Shown: positions 2,342 through 41,691 of the stretch, one piece after another
How positions within the stretch are numbered: position 1 is the stretch's first letter
Layout: the number at the start of each line of letters is the position of its first letter
Virus record (IMG/VR): IMGVR_UViG_3300037200_000368
Coordinates: 1 to 41,691 of that record
Length of the DNA: 41,691 nt
Source: a virus
Direction: 5' to 3' (one strand)
Translations under genes and position numbers: made by a program
Notes under the pieces: generated by a model
Database searches by the model: none
Told to the model about the DNA's origin: nothing
Seen by the model: the letters and a program-made list of their open reading frames with translations, nothing else

Positions 2342-2884
2342 CTACTTGCGGATCAAGCTCGTCCTGCTCGTCAGCCTGCAGCCCCACGCCGCCGGATCGA
2401 TCTCGTCGTCCTCCGCCAGAGCCTTCTTGATGGCGACTTTATCCGGCTCCGGAGGCGGCGTCTTCGGCTGCCGCAAATACTCAGCCGGGATCTTCGTTTC
2501 ATCGGTCACTTCGAGCGCGGCGGCGGCCTGCTGCGCGCGGAAATTGCAGCGAATCCCGGCAACTTGCGTGAGTCCGGCCTCGTGCATGAGTGTGAGCGCC
2601 TTGTCTTCGATGCGCTCGATCCGCGCGGCTGTGGCGTTCTTCTGTTTCGTCAGCCGCTTGATTTCGGCGGCGAGCGAAGACTGGCGCAGTTCGAGACGGT
2701 CGAGTACTCCGTTGGTCCGTTCGACTACGTTCTTGAGGCGCGCTTGGGCTTGCGCTTCAGTGGCGGCGGCCGCCTTACGTTCCGCCGCTCCTTTGGTTTC
2801 CGGCGGCCGCACGAGTGTCAGGTTCGCGTAGAGGGCCTTGTTCTTGATGCCATGGACGGGCTTGAGATGCGGCAGGGTTGCCAT
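2342..2884 (-). CDS. Siphovirus Gp157-like protein
   Basis: This 180-aa, mostly helical, Ala/Glu/Lys-rich protein has a long central coiled coil (about residues 35-110). Its C-terminal signature (KVAIKKALAEDDEIDPAAW then GCRLTSRTSLIRK) closely resembles the end of the Siphovirus Gp157 family, found in phage early/recombination operons. The molecular role of that family is not well defined; an association with phage resistance or recombination modules has been suggested. The ATG has a good GGGAGAAGG ribosome site that overlaps the end of the upstream gene. It is the last gene of the leftward operon and is followed by the terminator at 2268-2311. Confidence 0.78.
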   Translation of the reverse strand: MATLPHLKPVHGIKNKALYANLTLVRPPETKGAAERKAAAATEAQAQARLKNVVERTNGVLDRLELRQSSLAAEIKRLTKQKNATAARIERIEDKALTLMHEAGLTQVAGIRCNFRAQQAAAALEVTDETKIPAEYLRQPKTPPPEPDKVAIKKALAEDDEIDPAAWGCRLTSRTSLIRK

Positions 2885-2886
2885 GG

Positions 2887-3267
2887 TTAGTCACCTTCTC
2901 CCAGGCGGCAGGCGTCGCACATCGTCGTCTCGCCGCACGAGCAGCGATCCGCATCGAAGTGCGCCGAGTGTTCGTTGCAGGCATAGGCGTCGCAGGCATC
3001 GCACACGCGCGTAGCCGGTTCGCCGCAGTCAGGCGCGTAGCAGAAGTGCAGCTTTTTGACTGCGTTGTAGAGCACCGTCAGCGTGGTCAGCGTTTCGCTC
3101 GCATCAACGCGACGCCCCACGCGATCGCGGAATTCCTCATTGTGCAGGCCGAGGTCTTTGAGATTAGCGTGCGCCTGATCGAGCAAGTCCAAGGCTTGCC
3201 CGATCCACGTCTGCGCTTCGCTCAGCTTGACGTCGTTCTTGGTCGGTGCGGACATCGTGAACTCCAT
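2887..3267 (-). CDS. Cys-rich (zinc-ribbon/B-box-like) early protein
   Basis: The N-terminal two-thirds (about 15-72) is helical. The C-terminal 50 residues carry paired Cys/His motifs (CYAPDCGEPATRVCDACDAYACNEH, then CSCGETTMCDAC), consistent with one or two zinc sites of the B-box/zinc-ribbon type. Function is unknown; protein or nucleic-acid binding in the early operon is an inference. The first ATG overlaps the upstream stop (TAATG). Codon 5 (ATG, 3255) has GGAG six bases before it and may be the true start. It resembles the Cys-rich gene at 3946-4290 in style but not in overall sequence. Confidence 0.65.
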   Translation of the reverse strand: MEFTMSAPTKNDVKLSEAQTWIGQALDLLDQAHANLKDLGLHNEEFRDRVGRRVDASETLTTLTVLYNAVKKLHFCYAPDCGEPATRVCDACDAYACNEHSAHFDADRCSCGETTMCDACRLGEGD

Positions 3268-3863
3268 TAGTTCCCCCTGCTTTGTTTATTGCGTTCGATG
3301 AAGAGTGATGTTCCAGTGGCGCGCACGTCTTCCCAGGTGGGCGGGTCGATCTCGATCCCTCGCGCGCGCAATTGTTCGTAAGCGTTCTGATTGGCTTGGT
3401 AGCCGACGATCAGGCAGCGCGTCATGAGGTCCACCATAGGGTGGCTGGTGGGCACTGTCTGCGCCGTGGGAGGTGCGGCCAGCCGAGGCGCTTCCTGCGC
3501 GCGGGGTGCCAGCATCCGAATCGGTTGCGCGACGGGTTGCGGCGCCGCATCCTGCGGACGCTCGTGCAGCACTGGCACCGGAAGATGCGCGTCGGAAACC
3601 AGGCGCACCCGATACACCGGCACTTCCCCGTTGGTGCCGGTCTTCAACACCTGGATCTCGTCGCCGGGCTGGGCGCCGCTGGCCGCGATCGCGTTGCCAT
3701 AGGCGCGTGGCAAGTAGAGATCGCTCGGCACGCCCTCGTTGATTACCTTGAAGCGTGTCTCATCGCCGGTCAACGAAGAGTGTGCCTGTGTGCCGCGCAC
3801 ATCCTCCACCCTCAGAATCTTCGGTACGCCCGCATAAAGCCGGATCTTCTCGCGTTTAATCAT
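3267..3863 (-). CDS. Hypothetical early protein with Pro/Ala-rich linker (198 aa)
   Basis: I chose the ATG at 3863 (MIKREKIRLYAG) because AGAGGAG lies eight bases upstream; an upstream in-frame start lacks this. The N-terminal about 90 residues look like a small beta-rich domain (KILRVEDVRGTQAHSSLTG; VPVYRVRLV). A Pro/Ala/Gln-rich linker follows (about 95-140). The C-terminus is helical (SHPMVDLMTRCLIVGYQANQNAYEQLRARG). This layout, with a compact domain, flexible linker and terminal helix, recalls phage single-strand-binding or accessory proteins, but I see no specific motif and call it hypothetical. It is the second gene of the leftward operon and its stop overlaps the next ATG. Confidence 0.65.
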   Translation of the reverse strand: MIKREKIRLYAGVPKILRVEDVRGTQAHSSLTGDETRFKVINEGVPSDLYLPRAYGNAIAASGAQPGDEIQVLKTGTNGEVPVYRVRLVSDAHLPVPVLHERPQDAAPQPVAQPIRMLAPRAQEAPRLAAPPTAQTVPTSHPMVDLMTRCLIVGYQANQNAYEQLRARGIEIDPPTWEDVRATGTSLFIERNKQSRGN

Positions 3864-3945: not shown

Positions 3946-4290
3946 TCACGCGACCTCCCGCTCTTCGCTCTTCGCCGTCTCCGTCCGCACGCCGATCTTC
4001 ATACGATCCCGCAGACAGCGCGGGCACAGGTAAATCGAACCGAGTTCGTCCGCTTCGACCAGCTCGGCGTGATCGTCGAGCAAGTCGACGATGTGCGACT
4101 CGCAGAAATCTTCCTCGCAGTCGGCGCAGATCCATAGCTCGGTTTGGTCGTCTGTCCGCGTGCCGCAGGCCTTGGCGGCGCATTCGTAAATCGGCGCAAA
4201 CTCGTGGCCGAAGCGGCGGCAGGCCGGGTTCGTTTTGCCGTCGCGCGAATCGGCGACGTGCGCGCAGTCGATACAGCTCATCTTTTGCAT
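3946..4290 (-). CDS. Cys-rich zinc-binding-like protein, first gene of the leftward operon
   Basis: This 114-aa protein starts MQKMSCIDC. I prefer ATG 4290 because GGGAG lies eight bases upstream; ATG 4314 is an in-frame alternative without a clear site. It has many paired cysteines: CIDC (6-9), ACRRFG, CAAKAC, CADCEEDFC and CPRC near residue 90, consistent with two zinc ribbons. The C-terminus is charged. It is the promoter-proximal gene of the leftward operon, about 170 bases downstream of the predicted start of transcription, so its leader is long enough for an antitermination or regulatory element. Function unknown. A role as an early phage regulator or host-RNA-polymerase modifier is speculation. 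Confidence 0.65.
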   Translation of the reverse strand: MQKMSCIDCAHVADSRDGKTNPACRRFGHEFAPIYECAAKACGTRTDDQTELWICADCEEDFCESHIVDLLDDHAELVEADELGSIYLCPRCLRDRMKIGVRTETAKSEEREVA

Positions 4291-4465
4291 TCCGTTTTCT
4301 CCCACTCGTTTCATCGGCGCTTTTTTCGCTCGTTCGCCGTTCGGGCTTCACCGGGGGAGATCTCTACTCCCTGGCCTGGTCCGCTTTCCTTGCGTACTTT
4401 TCGGAGGCTCCAGGATCCGCAGGTTTTGAGATCTTCTCGGTTTGCGCTTCGTTCTTACAGTTACT

Positions 4466-4494
4466 ATTATGCGTCCTACCGCTAGATATGTCAA
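4466..4494 (-). promoter_or_regulatory. Leftward early promoter (PL-like), sigma70 type
   Basis: Read on the minus strand, a consensus -35 TTGACA (4494-4489) is followed by a 17-bp spacer and -10 CATAAT (4471-4466). This is the best sigma70 match I found in the window. It faces the operon ending at the terminator 2268-2311. Operator copy 4476-4485 lies entirely within its spacer, so a bound repressor would block polymerase. Confidence 0.8.
4476..4485. promoter_or_regulatory. Operator copy 1 (CTACCGCTAG)
   Basis: Ten-base near-palindrome (CTA-N4-TAG) within the spacer of the leftward promoter. Extended leftward it reads GCGTCCTACCGCTAG (4471-4485), an inverted match (13 of 15) to the copy at 4512-4526. 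The combined consensus suggests a dimeric repressor site TCCTA-N4-TAGGA. The repressor is not identified. Confidence 0.65.
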
Positions 4495-4503
4495 GCCGAT
4501 TTA

Positions 4504-4532
4504 TACAAAAACTACCGCTAGGACGCTATAAT
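4504..4532 (+). promoter_or_regulatory. Rightward promoter (PR-like) with perfect -10
   Basis: A perfect -10 TATAAT (4527-4532) has a weak -35 (TACAAA, 4504-4509) at 17 bp. The predicted start of transcription is about 4539, the A of the first gene's ATG. Operator copy 2 fills most of the spacer. The weak -35 may mean activator dependence or low basal expression. Confidence 0.65.
4512..4521. promoter_or_regulatory. Operator copy 2 (CTACCGCTAG)
   Basis: Identical 10-base copy of the site at 4476-4485, centre-to-centre 36 bp away, inside the spacer of the rightward promoter and followed by GACGC just as the other copy is on the opposite strand. The arrangement is symmetric, giving one operator per divergent promoter. 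Confidence 0.65.
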
Positions 4533-4538
4533 ATTTTC

Positions 4539-4757
4539 ATGGATAAAGATCCGGCAGCCGTAGCGCTTGGAAAAAAACGATGGAAGGGGAAAACCAAGGC
4601 GGAGAAAACCGCGCACGCCCTCATGATGAACGAGGAACGTTCTTCTAAGATGCCCCCCGAAGAGCGCAAGGCTTCGGCGCAGAAAGCGGCCCGCGCGCGT
4701 TGGGGACCGCCGAAGAAGAAAGCGGCGAAGAAAACCGGAGGAAAGAAGAGTGGCTGA
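4539..4757 (+). CDS. Small basic Lys/Ala/Arg-rich protein (72 aa)
   Basis: The protein starts MDKDPAAVALGKKRWKGKTK and contains the pattern PPEERKASAQKAARARW (39-55), followed by a lysine-rich tail. This resembles small basic plasmid/phage proteins of the 'LSPEER...ARKAAxARW' type, sometimes loosely called histone-like; nucleic-acid binding is inferred from charge. The frame is open far upstream, but that part is antisense to the leftward genes. ATG 4539 is chosen because it lies seven bases after the perfect -10. It would then be leaderless, with no ribosome site. Its last codons overlap the GTG of the next gene. Confidence 0.72.
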   Translation: MDKDPAAVALGKKRWKGKTKAEKTAHALMMNEERSSKMPPEERKASAQKAARARWGPPKKKAAKKTGGKKSG

Positions 4758-5040
4758 AGGCAACGGCAGCGAGCGCGATGCGCGTCTGAACCGCATCGAG
4801 CAAGAGCATGACGAGTTTCGGCGGGACATGAAGAACCTGCTGATAGCCCAAGTGATCCAGAAAAGCGAGATCGACGATTTGCTCAAACTGACGCGCGAGC
4901 AAACCAGGCAGCTTGAATTGGAGTCAACCGCGCGGCGGGAGAAGGACGAGGCGCTGGACGCCCGTGTCGACAAGCTGGTGTCGTCAATCGGCGAACTGAT
5001 CTCGCGCATTCCGCCGGAGAACTTGCGAGGCCAGCCATAG
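4750..5040 (+). CDS. Coiled-coil protein (96 aa)
   Basis: A highly charged, almost wholly alpha-helical protein (residues 8-85) with heptad-like spacing: LNRIEQEHDEFRRDMKNLL, then ELESTARREKDEALDARVDKLVSSIGELI. There is no membrane segment or enzyme motif. The GTG start overlaps the preceding stop by eight bases and follows GAAAGAAG, so the two genes are translationally linked. Dimerisation or scaffolding is the only role I can suggest. It belongs to the rightward operon controlled by the 4504-4532 promoter. Confidence 0.65.
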   Translation: MAEGNGSERDARLNRIEQEHDEFRRDMKNLLIAQVIQKSEIDDLLKLTREQTRQLELESTARREKDEALDARVDKLVSSIGELISRIPPENLRGQP

Positions 5041-5999: not shown

Positions 6000-6743
6000 A
6001 TGGGATTCATTACGCCGCCGGAAGGCTGGGAGTCGCAGAGGCCTCCCTTTAGAGGTTCGGCGGCGCCTGAGCAGCAAATAGTGCCGCAGCCGGCAGCAGC
6101 TCCTTATCGCCAGGAGCAACCATCGCCGCTCTACTCTCACGATCCGGCGACCGCCTACCGATATAGCCAGTCGTTCATCAACGATCTGCGAAACATGGGC
6201 GGCCGCGCAGCGGGCGGTCTGACCTTCGGCACGGTGTTCGGAGCTACCAGCGGCTTTTTGATGGCGCGATACCTGATGACTCTGCTCAAGGTCGGCGTGG
6301 GGATCGCCGTCCTTGTGGGGTTTGGTTTGCTGGCCAGCTTGGGGCAATCCAGTTCGTCTAACGCGGCCCCAACATCTGATCCCGCCTCGATTCAAGAACC
6401 CGTTGCCATTCGCGCGGATGATCCACCGCCAGCGGCCGCTACGCCGATAGCGCTCGCACCTGCACCGGAGGAGACATCACCCTCCGCGGCTCCGGAAGCA
6501 TCCGCAGCGCCTGCCCAATTGACCGCTCTCCCATATGAGAGACAGACTGGCACGGCAGCCGGTCCGGAAAATTCAGCCGCACCCGTTGTGCAAGCATCTC
6601 ATGGTTGGCCTGAGACAAGAGAAGCTGTAGTAGCACCCAATCCTTCAGTTCCCGTCGCCCTTCCCGTGGCTGATGTGAATAACAGTCCATCAACCCATAA
6701 GAAAGGGAAGCTGTACCGGGCGCTTCATCTGTTCACGCGCTAA
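6000..6743 (+). CDS. Single-TM Pro/Ala-rich protein (247 aa)
   Basis: I chose ATG 6000 (MGFITPPEGW) because AGAGGGA lies eight bases upstream; an earlier TTG in frame has no such site. The N-terminal about 60 residues are Pro/Gln-rich. A Gly-rich stretch (NMGGRAAGGLTFGTVFGATSG, about 65-85) precedes one TM helix (about 95-115, LLKVGVGIAVLVGFGLLASLG). The remaining 130 residues are Pro/Ala/Thr-rich and disordered, ending in a basic tail. There is no enzyme motif. The layout fits a membrane-anchored stalk crossing the periplasm, perhaps for superinfection exclusion or envelope modification (inference). Its 3' end overlaps the convergent excisionase-like gene by 11 bases. Confidence 0.65.
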   Translation: MGFITPPEGWESQRPPFRGSAAPEQQIVPQPAAAPYRQEQPSPLYSHDPATAYRYSQSFINDLRNMGGRAAGGLTFGTVFGATSGFLMARYLMTLLKVGVGIAVLVGFGLLASLGQSSSSNAAPTSDPASIQEPVAIRADDPPPAAATPIALAPAPEETSPSAAPEASAAPAQLTALPYERQTGTAAGPENSAAPVVQASHGWPETREAVVAPNPSVPVALPVADVNNSPSTHKKGKLYRALHLFTR

Positions 6744-6939
6744 CCCCGCCCCGCTCGCAAAACGCATCCAGCCATGCGCGCGTCGTGCGCCACAACTTGC
6801 CGGCGCGGTAGCCGGGTAAGGAGCCCACGCGCAACAGCCGTTTGACCGTGTTTTCGCTGATCGCCATCTCCCGGGCGATGTCCTTTACGCTCAAATCGGC
6901 GGTACGCCGCTCTTTCTTCTTCCCCACACTCTTAGCCAT
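6733..6939 (-). CDS. Excisionase/MerR-type HTH DNA-binding protein (68 aa)
   Basis: The core (ADLSVKDIAREMAISENTVKRLLRVGSLPGYRAGKLWRTTRAWLDAF) is the compact winged helix of the HTH_17/excisionase family: helix-turn-helix, the wing 'GSLPGYRAGKLWR' and a final helix. Such proteins bind DNA in excision or act as small regulators. I take the start as MAKSVGKKKE (6939); upstream starts up to 6999 are open but no start has a strong ribosome site. It is the only minus-strand gene between two rightward blocks. Two tandem copies of CCCACATCGA (6976-6995) lie directly upstream and may be its own binding sites. It could serve either recombinase in the window. Confidence 0.75.
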   Translation of the reverse strand: MAKSVGKKKERRTADLSVKDIAREMAISENTVKRLLRVGSLPGYRAGKLWRTTRAWLDAFCERGGVSA

Positions 6940-6975
6940 ACTGGTTTTATCGGCCCATCCGGGCCCGCGCATCAA

Positions 6976-6995
6976 CCCACATCGACCCACATCGA
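6976..6995. repeat. Tandem 10-bp direct repeat CCCACATCGA x2
   Basis: Two perfect, directly abutting copies (6976-6985 and 6986-6995), 37-57 bases upstream of the chosen excisionase-like start. Helical-phase spacing of 10 bp suits cooperative binding by a small winged-helix protein. If the longer start at 6999 is used, the repeat is coding. Confidence 0.5.
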
Positions 6996-6999
6996 ACAA

Positions 7000-9093: not shown

Positions 9094-9292
9094 TCATCCG
9101 ACGAGCTTCGAAGTTTTCGTTGACGACTCCGAGCCGCTGCCGGCCGGCGTCGGTATCGTGCTGCATGGCGCGTCGATAGTCGAATCCGACGAAGGCGAGC
9201 TGGCGCCGGGCTGCAAGCTGACACCCGAGCAGGCCCTCAGCCTCAGCGCAGCGCTCGTGGCGTGTGCCCAGGTGATTGATACCGGAGCGTAG
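9077..9292 (+). CDS. Small acidic hypothetical protein (71 aa)
   Basis: The product (MRPLSDHPTSFEVFVDDSEPLP ... LTPEQALSLSAALVACAQVIDTG) has a beta-like first half and a helical C-terminus. I recognise no domain. The GTG start overlaps the end of the preceding gene; its ribosome site is weak and TTG 9086 is an alternative. It ends just before the inverted repeat in front of the serine recombinase. Confidence 0.5.
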   Translation: MRPLSDHPTSFEVFVDDSEPLPAGVGIVLHGASIVESDEGELAPGCKLTPEQALSLSAALVACAQVIDTGA

Positions 9293-9298
9293 CGGCAT

Positions 9299-9322
9299 AC
9301 TGAACGAAAGGTTCCGTTCAGT
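9299..9322. repeat. Perfect 8-bp inverted repeat at the serine recombinase start
   Basis: ACTGAACG (9299-9306) and CGTTCAGT (9315-9322) surround an 8-base centre containing AAAGG. The right arm includes the candidate GTG start at 9321 and the centre contains its ribosome site. It could be a recombinase/regulator binding site, or an RNA hairpin hiding the ribosome site. Confidence 0.5.
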
Positions 9323-10061
9323 GCCTCTACAAAACGCCAAAACCCTTTCAGACGAATACATCAAGATGAAGAGCAGCAGTAAAAACGGCTTTATCGCCTA
9401 TTACCGGGTGTCGAGCGTCCGCCAAGGGGAAAGCGGGCTCGGACTCGAGGCGCAACGGGAGGCGGTCCTCCGCTTCGCCGGCAAGATGCCTATCCGCGCT
9501 GAGTTTACTGAAGTCGAATCCGGCAAACGGCACATCAACCGGCCACAGTTACTCGCGGCACTCGGCGAGGCGAAGCTGCGCAAAGCGACTCTTCTGATTG
9601 CCAAGCTCGACCGGCTAGCCCGCAACGTCCACTTCATTTCCGGGTTAATGGAATCAGGCGTGGACTTCATCGCCCTCGATATCCCGCACGCGAACAAGCT
9701 CACTTTGCATATCATGGCCGCCATGGCCGAGCACGAACGGGAGATGATCTCCCAGCGCACCAAGGCCGGGCTCGACGCCGCAAAACGGGAGATCAAGGCC
9801 AACGGGTTCCGCATCAGTCGCAGAAGCGGACGCAAGTATTCGAAGCATGGCAATCCCCATTGGCCGGAATCACTCGCGAGGGCGAGGGCAGCTCGAACTG
9901 TCAAGCCGACTCCGACGGCGGTTCTCGAAATGATCCGCAGCCTGCGCTCGCAAGGTAAAACTTTTCGGGATATCACGGAGCAACTGAACGGGTTAGAACT
10001 GAAGACGGGAAGCGGCGCCAAGTGGTACGCGAGCACGGTCCGCGCCGCGCTGCTCGCTTGA
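9321..10061 (+). CDS. Serine recombinase (resolvase/invertase family)
   Basis: This is a small serine recombinase of about 246 aa from GTG 9321, or 231 aa from ATG 9366. The catalytic N-terminus shows IAYYRVSSVRQGESGLGLEAQR, where the serine of YYRVS is the nucleophile. LIAKLDRLARN follows (the conserved 'KLDRLaRn' arginine motif), then MAAMAEHEREMISQRTKAGLDAAK, the long E helix. The C-terminus has an HTH-like region (AVLEMIRSLRSQGKTFRDITEQLN). I favour GTG 9321 because AAAGG lies nine bases upstream. It sits between lysis and terminase genes, an unusual place in a phage already carrying a tyrosine integrase. Possible roles are dimer resolution, inversion or an inserted element. Confidence 0.9.
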   Translation: MPLQNAKTLSDEYIKMKSSSKNGFIAYYRVSSVRQGESGLGLEAQREAVLRFAGKMPIRAEFTEVESGKRHINRPQLLAALGEAKLRKATLLIAKLDRLARNVHFISGLMESGVDFIALDIPHANKLTLHIMAAMAEHEREMISQRTKAGLDAAKREIKANGFRISRRSGRKYSKHGNPHWPESLARARAARTVKPTPTAVLEMIRSLRSQGKTFRDITEQLNGLELKTGSGAKWYASTVRAALLA

Positions 10062-40222: not shown

Positions 40223-40867
40223 TCATTGCTTCGCGCTCGCTTTCCCCGTCTCGTTCCAATTCTTGCGCCGCTCAGTCAAATCCGGCGATCCTTGGTACTT
40301 TTGTAGGGAGTCCTTCAGTACTCGCCAGCTTCGGCCGAATTTTTCCGCGTAAATTTTTCCAGCCTCCGACAGTCGACGGACGTGCGGAACCGGTATGCCT
40401 GAAAGGGCGCTCGCTTCCTCCCAGGTGAGCCAGAGCTTCTCCTGCAGCGGAACGCGCTCGCTGCTGATCGACACCACGCCGCGAATCAGCTCCAGAAGGC
40501 TTTCGTAGGACCAGCCGCCCGTCTTCAGCGAGACGAGCGCGGCTCCCTTTCCCTGCCCCCAGAGATCGAGGTTGGTTGAGCTCGCCTTCCCTGCCCCGTT
40601 CCCTTCCTCATTCCCCGTCTCCGTCTTCTTCATCGCGCTGGGTGGCCGCAGCGCCGCACGCATTTCCTTTTCCCGCTTCAGGCGGTCGACGTCTGCCGTA
40701 ACAAAGACCCGTGTGCCTTTTTTGCCGGGCCGGGAGGCAAGGGCCGATCCCACCCGCCCGTCCCGAGCCATGCGTTCGAGCGTGGCATCGGCGACTCCTA
40801 AGCGTGCGAGCGCCTCTTCTCTTTGCAGCCAGCCTTCCGGCAACGCGCCGTCTTTCAAGACAATCAT
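40223..40867 (-). CDS. Double-HTH DNA-binding regulator (214 aa)
   Basis: Two HTH domains are visible. The N-terminal one (about 12-65) has LQREEALARLGVADATLERMARDG and GTRVFVTADVDRLKRE, resembling the helix-turn-helix plus wing of excisionase/MerR-like regulators. The C-terminal one (about 145-190) has LWLTWEEASALSGIPVPHVRRLSEAGKIYAEKFGRSWRVLKDSLQKY, an HTH_17-like domain. A Lys/Glu/Gly-rich linker (about 70-100) and a conserved-looking middle (YESLLELIRGVVSI) connect them. A GGGGG-containing site precedes the ATG. It is the best candidate in this window for a phage transcription regulator, but no evidence links it to the 4476-4521 operators. Confidence 0.72.
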   Translation of the reverse strand: MIVLKDGALPEGWLQREEALARLGVADATLERMARDGRVGSALASRPGKKGTRVFVTADVDRLKREKEMRAALRPPSAMKKTETGNEEGNGAGKASSTNLDLWGQGKGAALVSLKTGGWSYESLLELIRGVVSISSERVPLQEKLWLTWEEASALSGIPVPHVRRLSEAGKIYAEKFGRSWRVLKDSLQKYQGSPDLTERRKNWNETGKASAKQ

Positions 40868-41036: not shown

Positions 41037-41429
41037 TTATTCCAACAACCGCAGTTGCTCGGGAACGGGCTCCGCGGCGAGCAACAGCAGTTGCTCCGGT
41101 TGCGCGCGGTGCAGTTCCCGCCAGAGCATGTAGAGCAGCGGCGCCTCGATCGCGATCGCAAAACTCGGCCGGTGCAGGAAGTGGGCCCGCGCATGGCAAC
41201 GCCGGCAGAGCGTGACCATCCAGCGGCGCGTCTGCGCGCCCGGTTTGCGGTGATGCACCAGAATTAAGAACTCGGCCAGCTCGCCGCAGGCCTGGCACTG
41301 ATACTCATCCCGCCGAAGGACGGCTTCCCGTTCGCCGCCGAATTGCTCGCGGTTCAATCGGTCACGCCGCGCGCAGCGCGGGCAATCAACGGCGCCGCCA
41401 CAACCGCAAAGCAGAGAGATCTGGGTCAT
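41037..41429 (-). CDS. HNH endonuclease-like protein (130 aa)
   Basis: I start at ATG 41429 (MTQISLLCGCGG) with AGTGAG six bases upstream; a longer open frame upstream overlaps the neighbouring gene. Four N-terminal cysteines (C8, C10, C16, C19) form a small zinc site. C45/C48 (YQCQACGE), H59/H60 (LVHHRKPG) and C75/C78 with H79 and H83 (LCRRCHARAH) are the HNH core with its structural zinc. HNH proteins nick or cut DNA. Next to packaging genes they aid terminase, but here the gene is at the other end of the window. It may instead be a homing-type or early nuclease. Confidence 0.85.
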   Translation of the reverse strand: MTQISLLCGCGGAVDCPRCARRDRLNREQFGGEREAVLRRDEYQCQACGELAEFLILVHHRKPGAQTRRWMVTLCRRCHARAHFLHRPSFAIAIEAPLLYMLWRELHRAQPEQLLLLAAEPVPEQLRLLE

Positions 41430-41436
41430 GCGAAGC

Positions 41437-41691
41437 TCACTGATCTTCGTCAGATGCCGTCCCCGCAACTTTTTCGAGAGAGTCGATGGCGTATTGGGTT
41501 CTTTGCGTGGAATCGTCCGCGCACACATAGCAGAGCTGGCCTTCTCTGCCGAATCCAGTGACCGTGCCTGCCGCAGGTGTGCGGTTGGTGTCGGTTTTCG
41601 TAAGGCGCACTCCCCGCGCTCTGGCCTCACTGGTGAGTCGCACCTTGTCACCGACTTTGATTTTGCTCTCGGCGTCTGTATCGGGTTTCAT
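41437..41691 (-). CDS. Small SH3/KOW-like hypothetical protein (84 aa)
   Basis: The product begins on the last base of the window (ATG at 41691). IKVGDKVRLTSEARARGVRLTKTDTNRTPAAGTVTGFGREGQLCYVCADDSTQRTQYAIDSLEKV has a 'vGdkVrl......gtV.gfg' pattern typical of small SH3-like beta barrels. I recognise no specific function. It precedes the HNH gene by seven bases in the same operon. A longer N-terminus outside the window cannot be excluded. Confidence 0.6.
   Translation of the reverse strand: MKPDTDAESKIKVGDKVRLTSEARARGVRLTKTDTNRTPAAGTVTGFGREGQLCYVCADDSTQRTQYAIDSLEKVAGTASDEDQ

Follow-up and report, generated by a model that had tools for sequence, protein, structure and literature searches.

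A predicted two-operator switch between divergent prophage promoters, with a small ARW protein as candidate regulator

We analyzed a 41,691-nt stretch of viral DNA (IMG/VR record IMGVR_UViG_3300037200_000368; hereafter, the window) and found two divergent promoters that carry matched, operator-like sites, one in each promoter spacer. Comparison with related loci lends good support to the control of both promoters by one regulator. We consider it somewhat probable that the locus works as a divergent switch with two operators and that its cognate regulator is the adjacent 72-aa protein, a member of a family of small proteins (here, ARW proteins) whose DNA binding we infer from sequence relationships. 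Phage switches outside well-studied phyla are often missed for lack of a recognised CI/Cro homolog; in this case a short pattern in the DNA leads to a family of candidate regulators with no assigned function.

Divergent promoters and their matched sites

The window is part of a prophage-like element (genome G000, contig C348) that is bordered on both sides by host-looking genes and is myophage-like, encoding integrase, terminase, portal, major head, tail sheath, and baseplate proteins. Searches of named phages returned neither DNA nor protein matches to the window, and no relatives turned up among viral contigs when the Cys-rich, Gp157-like, and 72-aa proteins were used as queries. The element also encodes a HicA/HicB toxin-antitoxin pair adjoining the integrase (1311-1900; PF07927, E=3.4e-11; PF05534, E=2.1e-16) and, besides the tyrosine integrase (1-957), a resolvase-type serine recombinase directly upstream of the terminase genes (9276-10061).

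Table 1 Features of the divergent promoter region and flanking genes in the window
Feature	Position	Strand	Remarks
Gp157-like gene	2342..2884	-	PF05565 / PHROG 253 (E=1.7e-19 and 8.9e-20)
Cys-rich gene, 126 aa	2887..3267	-	No family match
~200-aa gene	3267..3860	-	No known family; query in searches (206-aa protein)
First leftward gene	3946..4314	-	Cys-rich, zinc-ribbon-like; only sub-threshold zinc-finger matches
Leftward promoter	4466..4494	-	-35 TTGACA 4489-4494; 17-nt spacer; -10 CATAAT 4466-4471
Operator 1, GCGTCCTACCGCTAG	4472..4486	+	In leftward promoter spacer; contains the 10-mer CTACCGCTAG at 4476-4485
Rightward promoter	4504..4532	+	Weak -35 TACAAA 4504-4509; 17-nt spacer; -10 TATAAT 4527-4532
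Operator 2, CTACCGCTAGGACGC	4512..4526	+	In rightward promoter spacer; 13/15 inverted copy of operator 1
72-aa ARW protein gene	4539..4757	+	Predicted leaderless start 6 nt after -10; basic; proposed cognate regulator
Second rightward gene	4750..5040	+	96 aa; coiled-coil-like by eye; no family match

Back-to-back promoters had been described here in an earlier note on this DNA (leftward TTGACA-17-CATAAT, rightward TATAAT), and both are present at the positions it gave (Table 1). The leftward promoter is the sole match in the window to TTGACA-N16..18 followed by at least 5/6 of TATAAT (shuffles average 0.075 matches), and its transcripts are expected to start near 4459. By eye, the leftward mRNA begins with ~150 nt of leader in which GGGAG, a Shine-Dalgarno-like sequence, stands ahead of the ATG, and the first leftward gene may in fact start at an internal ATG near 4290. 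On the rightward side the ATG at 4539 stands 6 nt past the -10 element, and from this spacing we expect the mRNA to be leaderless.

The 10-mer CTACCGCTAG occurs once in each spacer (4476-4485 and 4512-4521), with no further exact copy in the window. This identity, and the 13/15 inverted match of the 15-base versions, had both been claimed in the earlier note and were borne out by 2000 dinucleotide shuffles of the 98-nt region 4441-4538, in which the exact repeat had P=0.0042, an inverted match of at least 13/15 had P=0.004, and the two occurred jointly in 0/2000; over the full 224-nt gap the repeat had P=0.039. The inverted match runs on into the -10 elements (TAGGACGC-ATAATA vs TAGGACGCTATAATA, with one 1-nt gap), so that the two promoters carry the same operator-plus--10 module. 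Only two sites in the window lie within three mismatches of the palindrome consensus. Elsewhere in the 9.4-Mb genome there are seven exact copies of CTACCGCTAG; six fall inside long open frames, and no promoter is recognised around the seventh. Since this genome-wide search placed CTACCGCTAG at no other recognisable promoter of the host, the sites look local to the prophage element, and on the same grounds we consider HicAB, LexA, or another host regulon an unlikely source of the sites. A scan of IMG/VR for two copies of CTACCGCTAG returned 57 stretches, and nearly all of these are coding repeats that recur every 9 bp; L099, which clearly departs from this pattern, is an unrelated stretch directly upstream of a terminase gene.

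Recurrence of the layout in relatives

In several relatives, the ~200-aa leftward gene faces an ARW gene. With the 206-aa protein as query, a search across the family found G032, where the divergent partner, too, is an ARW protein, and G084, a single case in which we saw no ARW gene and no clear site pair. We also compiled a blind set from an order-wide search with the 206-aa alignment, picking loci without regard to operators; one viral contig matched by this alignment (L199) has no clear ARW gene alongside. Blind-set loci in which the 206-aa gene stands directly opposite an ARW gene show the layout again, with different site sequences. L177, from the same genus, has ATGCACAGCGCTGTGCAT in its leftward promoter (TTGACT/CATAAT) and CACAGCGCTTTGCAT in its leaderless rightward one. 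The site pairs are GCGTAAGCGGCT and GCGTAATCGGCT in L178 and TGCTTAGCGCGTTAAGCA and GCTAGGCGTGCTAAGC in L185, and the leftward spacer of L193/L021 carries TACTCAGCGCCGAGTA. L019 has two copies of CATCGATAG, both on the leftward side and none in the rightward spacer. L205 (Bryobacterales) has a leftward promoter of the same type with TGCTAAGCACTCAGCA in its spacer, as does L203 (Acidobacteria) with TGCTTACTGAGCAAGCA, and the leaderless rightward promoter is found in many relatives as well as in the window.

Among 21 divergent loci in which a leftward promoter was found and scored automatically, left and right spacers of the same locus matched better than spacers from mismatched loci (8.57 vs 7.02 of 12, P=5e-5), although several of these loci are related and the independent cases are therefore fewer. 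The window, L177, and L178 each ranked first of 21 in own-spacer matching. Palindromicity of a single spacer was not enriched among rightward promoters (2/20; 3/10 among leftward ones) and was discarded as a marker; what carries the signal is that sites come in pairs. The exact consensus TCCTA-N4-TAGGA put forward in the earlier note is not conserved in relatives, so a search by motif alone would have looked negative; of the paired operator that it proposed to seek in related phages, the paired layout is conserved and the site sequence is not. Both sites change together while the layout is kept, which is the trace expected of one sequence-specific regulator.

ARW proteins and their operators

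The ARW family shares a C-terminal core, GGxARAxxLTPEQRxExARKAxxARW, to which EERSSKMPPEERKASAQKAARARW corresponds in the window protein, a divergent member with 34-45% identity to several others. PHROG 2384, for which no function is recorded, is matched by 32/34 aligned relatives; the window protein itself falls below the match threshold of this profile, and one relative (L014) matches the KGG motif (KGG repeat, PF10685). An ARW profile matches 90/237 genomes of the family, and in a named collection it has seven matches: five in Acidobacteriota (Solibacteraceae, Bryobacterales, Terriglobia, Acidobacteriales, and an unclassified Acidobacteria MAG), one in Dehalococcoidia, and one in a Nitrospirales MAG. 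Across the loci studied, within phages and outside them, the ARW gene is the single shared gene; it occurs in prophages, beside apparently IS1-like transposase genes (L020, L045), and alone. AlphaFold models of ARW proteins consist of helices only (pLDDT 81 and 86, pTM 0.39 and 0.48); a fold search of the PDB with these models gave no match and recognised no DNA-binding fold. In profile searches the ARW core aligned with LTPEQRAAALEKAAAAR from the N-terminal region of actinobacterial IHF (sIHF SCO1480, mIHF), a weak match over 31 residues that is not significant over the domain (E=0.028). The remainder of the IHF fold is absent from ARW proteins, and we treat the resemblance as a lead only. 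A literature search found no paper on ARW proteins as regulators.

Promoters of ARW genes carry paired elements more often than those of control genes do. We read the upstream regions of 66 ARW genes, 63 of which were testable for pairs. Paired elements (p<=0.05) were present in 23/63, where 3.2 were expected, compared to 9/94 control genes (Fisher P=5e-5), about four of the nine positive controls sharing an ARW promoter region; some two thirds of the ARW promoters tested had no significant pair. A TATAAT-like -10 element lies 5-7 nt ahead of a possible start codon in 23/66 ARW genes vs 1.16 in shuffles that allowed the same choice of start codons.

Operators also covary with the proteins. Similarity between operators correlates with similarity between ARW cores (Mantel r=0.55, P=0.0005), whereas that of flanking DNA further upstream does not (r=0.12, P=0.09), with the reservation that many ARW loci are related and thus not independent. 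L031 and L177, unlinked loci from different genera, encode proteins that share a GG-NSR-N segment and have operators that share CACArCGCTkTGCAT. In ten genomes chosen for carrying ARW genes, copies of TGACCGCTCACGTATAAT with at most two mismatches are all at ARW genes (9/9), while 11/15 sites with three mismatches lie away from them. Different ARW genes of one genome differ in their operators (e.g., L031 and L117 in G203). Covariation by itself could reflect a third regulator conserved with the homologous genes, because homologous genes can keep homologous control; taken together with the confinement of the TGACCGCTCACGTATAAT operator to ARW genes, it favours cognate autoregulation.

These patterns bear on other readings of the site pair. 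The promoters might resemble one another through inverted duplication of a single promoter module, or by chance, with no regulator bound, and a similarity that, apart from a 1-nt gap, spans the operator and reaches the -10 element is what a duplication could leave behind. We regard this as improbable, given that in relatives both sides change in step under a constant layout, that operators track the ARW protein better than the flanking DNA does, and that shuffles make chance an unlikely source of the two matches. Very improbable, in our judgment, is binding by a host transcription factor with the promoters as part of a host regulon: ARW genes with similar operators do occur outside prophages in several genomes, but no further copy of the window operator stands at a promoter elsewhere in the host genome, operators differ among the ARW genes of one genome, and one operator type is confined to ARW promoters.

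A less remote alternative, though still an unlikely one, is that the operator pair is real and is bound by another phage protein, the ARW gene being merely regulated. The earlier note had pointed to HTH proteins at 6733-6939 and 40223-40867, and these exist; both (here 6733-6999 and 40223-40867) have HTH_17/excisionase-like domains, a known DNA-binding fold. In addition, a LuxR-type HTH protein is encoded among the leftward genes of the G032 prophage, and G214 carries a second exact copy of the L177 operator (L208; G214:C207) at a leftward promoter-like site without a recognised ARW gene. This second site lies near an HNH-like gene resembling window 41037-41651 and would fit a phage regulon. 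Against such a regulator, the two HTH genes are not adjacent to the operators, lying 2.2 kb and 36 kb away; non-phage ARW genes have paired operators with no common HTH partner; and the operators of L031 and L117 differ within G203. Searches of Pfam and PHROGs gave no HTH match in the proteins neighbouring the operators, and the earlier note had seen no recognised repressor beside them. We revise that view, as the family of the adjacent gene (4539-4757) carries dedicated, covarying operators, which makes the ARW protein a better candidate than the HTH proteins. Both HTH_17 proteins also have weak PADLOC mad1 matches (E=1.2e-7 for 40223-40867 and 5.7e-4 for 6733-6999), probably because of the shared HTH_17 fold.

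The proposed switch and known systems

With the ARW protein as the candidate regulator, the switch would work as follows. The protein would bind a palindrome-like operator (half-site GTCCTA/TAGGAC, centre CCGC) in both spacers, and when bound would block RNA polymerase at the leftward promoter, which serves the genes from 4314 to 2342, including the Gp157-like gene, as well as at the leaderless rightward promoter. The 72-aa protein would thus act as an autorepressor and as a repressor of the leftward operon, and each related prophage or mobile element would pair a distinct ARW protein with a distinct operator sequence, in the manner of heteroimmune specificities. The single repressor of both operons envisaged in the earlier note stands in part: the matched sites behave as a unit in relatives. 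We infer that the ARW protein binds DNA and that it represses and does not activate, as well as any part it has in lysogeny.

The closest known parallels are partial. Like the lambda immunity region (CI/Cro, OL and OR), the window has matched operators at phage early promoters and divergent transcription, and operator specificity differs between relatives in both cases. In contrast to lambda, no recognised CI/Cro-type protein lies beside the operators, each promoter has one site rather than three, both promoters fall within 70 bp, and the candidate regulator is a 72-aa protein without a recognised HTH. With no CI/Cro-type gene and no operator cluster, the locus does not belong to the lambda type; the earlier comparison to a minimal lambda OL/OR holds as a functional analogy, and not for a CI/Cro neighbour or clusters of about three sites. 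In the immB region of phage PY54, divergent strong promoters with leaderless regulator mRNAs surround one operator (PMC4488713). This telomere phage resembles the window in its divergent promoters, its leaderless mRNA (here expected from spacing), and its simple operator arrangement, and differs in having recognisable CI and Cro, with a Cro that binds a single site controlling cI only (PMC4488713).

The recurrence of this layout before many related small genes suggests that the ARW family switches its own and neighbouring genes. More tentatively, we propose that ARW proteins (PHROG 2384 and relatives) may form a new autorepressor family of very small proteins that bind DNA sequence-specifically, each with a matched operator pair of its own. 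Such proteins would be widespread in prophages, insertion elements, and Acidobacteriota genomes, and in prophages might serve as an early-gene/immunity switch in place of CI/Cro-type HTH proteins. If so, PHROG 2384 would gain a function, the quiescence of these prophages and of some insertion elements would be explained, and the family would supply a naturally occurring series of protein-operator pairs in which the diversification of specificity could be studied.

Several further features of ARW loci were noted. In L020 and L045 the ARW genes diverge from IS1-type-looking transposase genes, and the promoter region between them contains ARW-type repeats, so transposition may also be under the control of the module. 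In L020, L044, L125, and L203, longer proteins of P63C-like appearance carry a fused ARW motif at their N-terminus, and the promoters of L020, L044, and L203 contain GCTTGC/GCAAGC repeats. Another ARW subgroup (L110, L115, L132, L133, L135, L036, L022, and L206) has a different conserved element, GGTAGTGKSTCAGTTTGAAATT-like, ~60-90 nt upstream; this element, which also occurs in a Nitrospirales MAG and forms a long inverted repeat in L132, may be the end of a mobile element.
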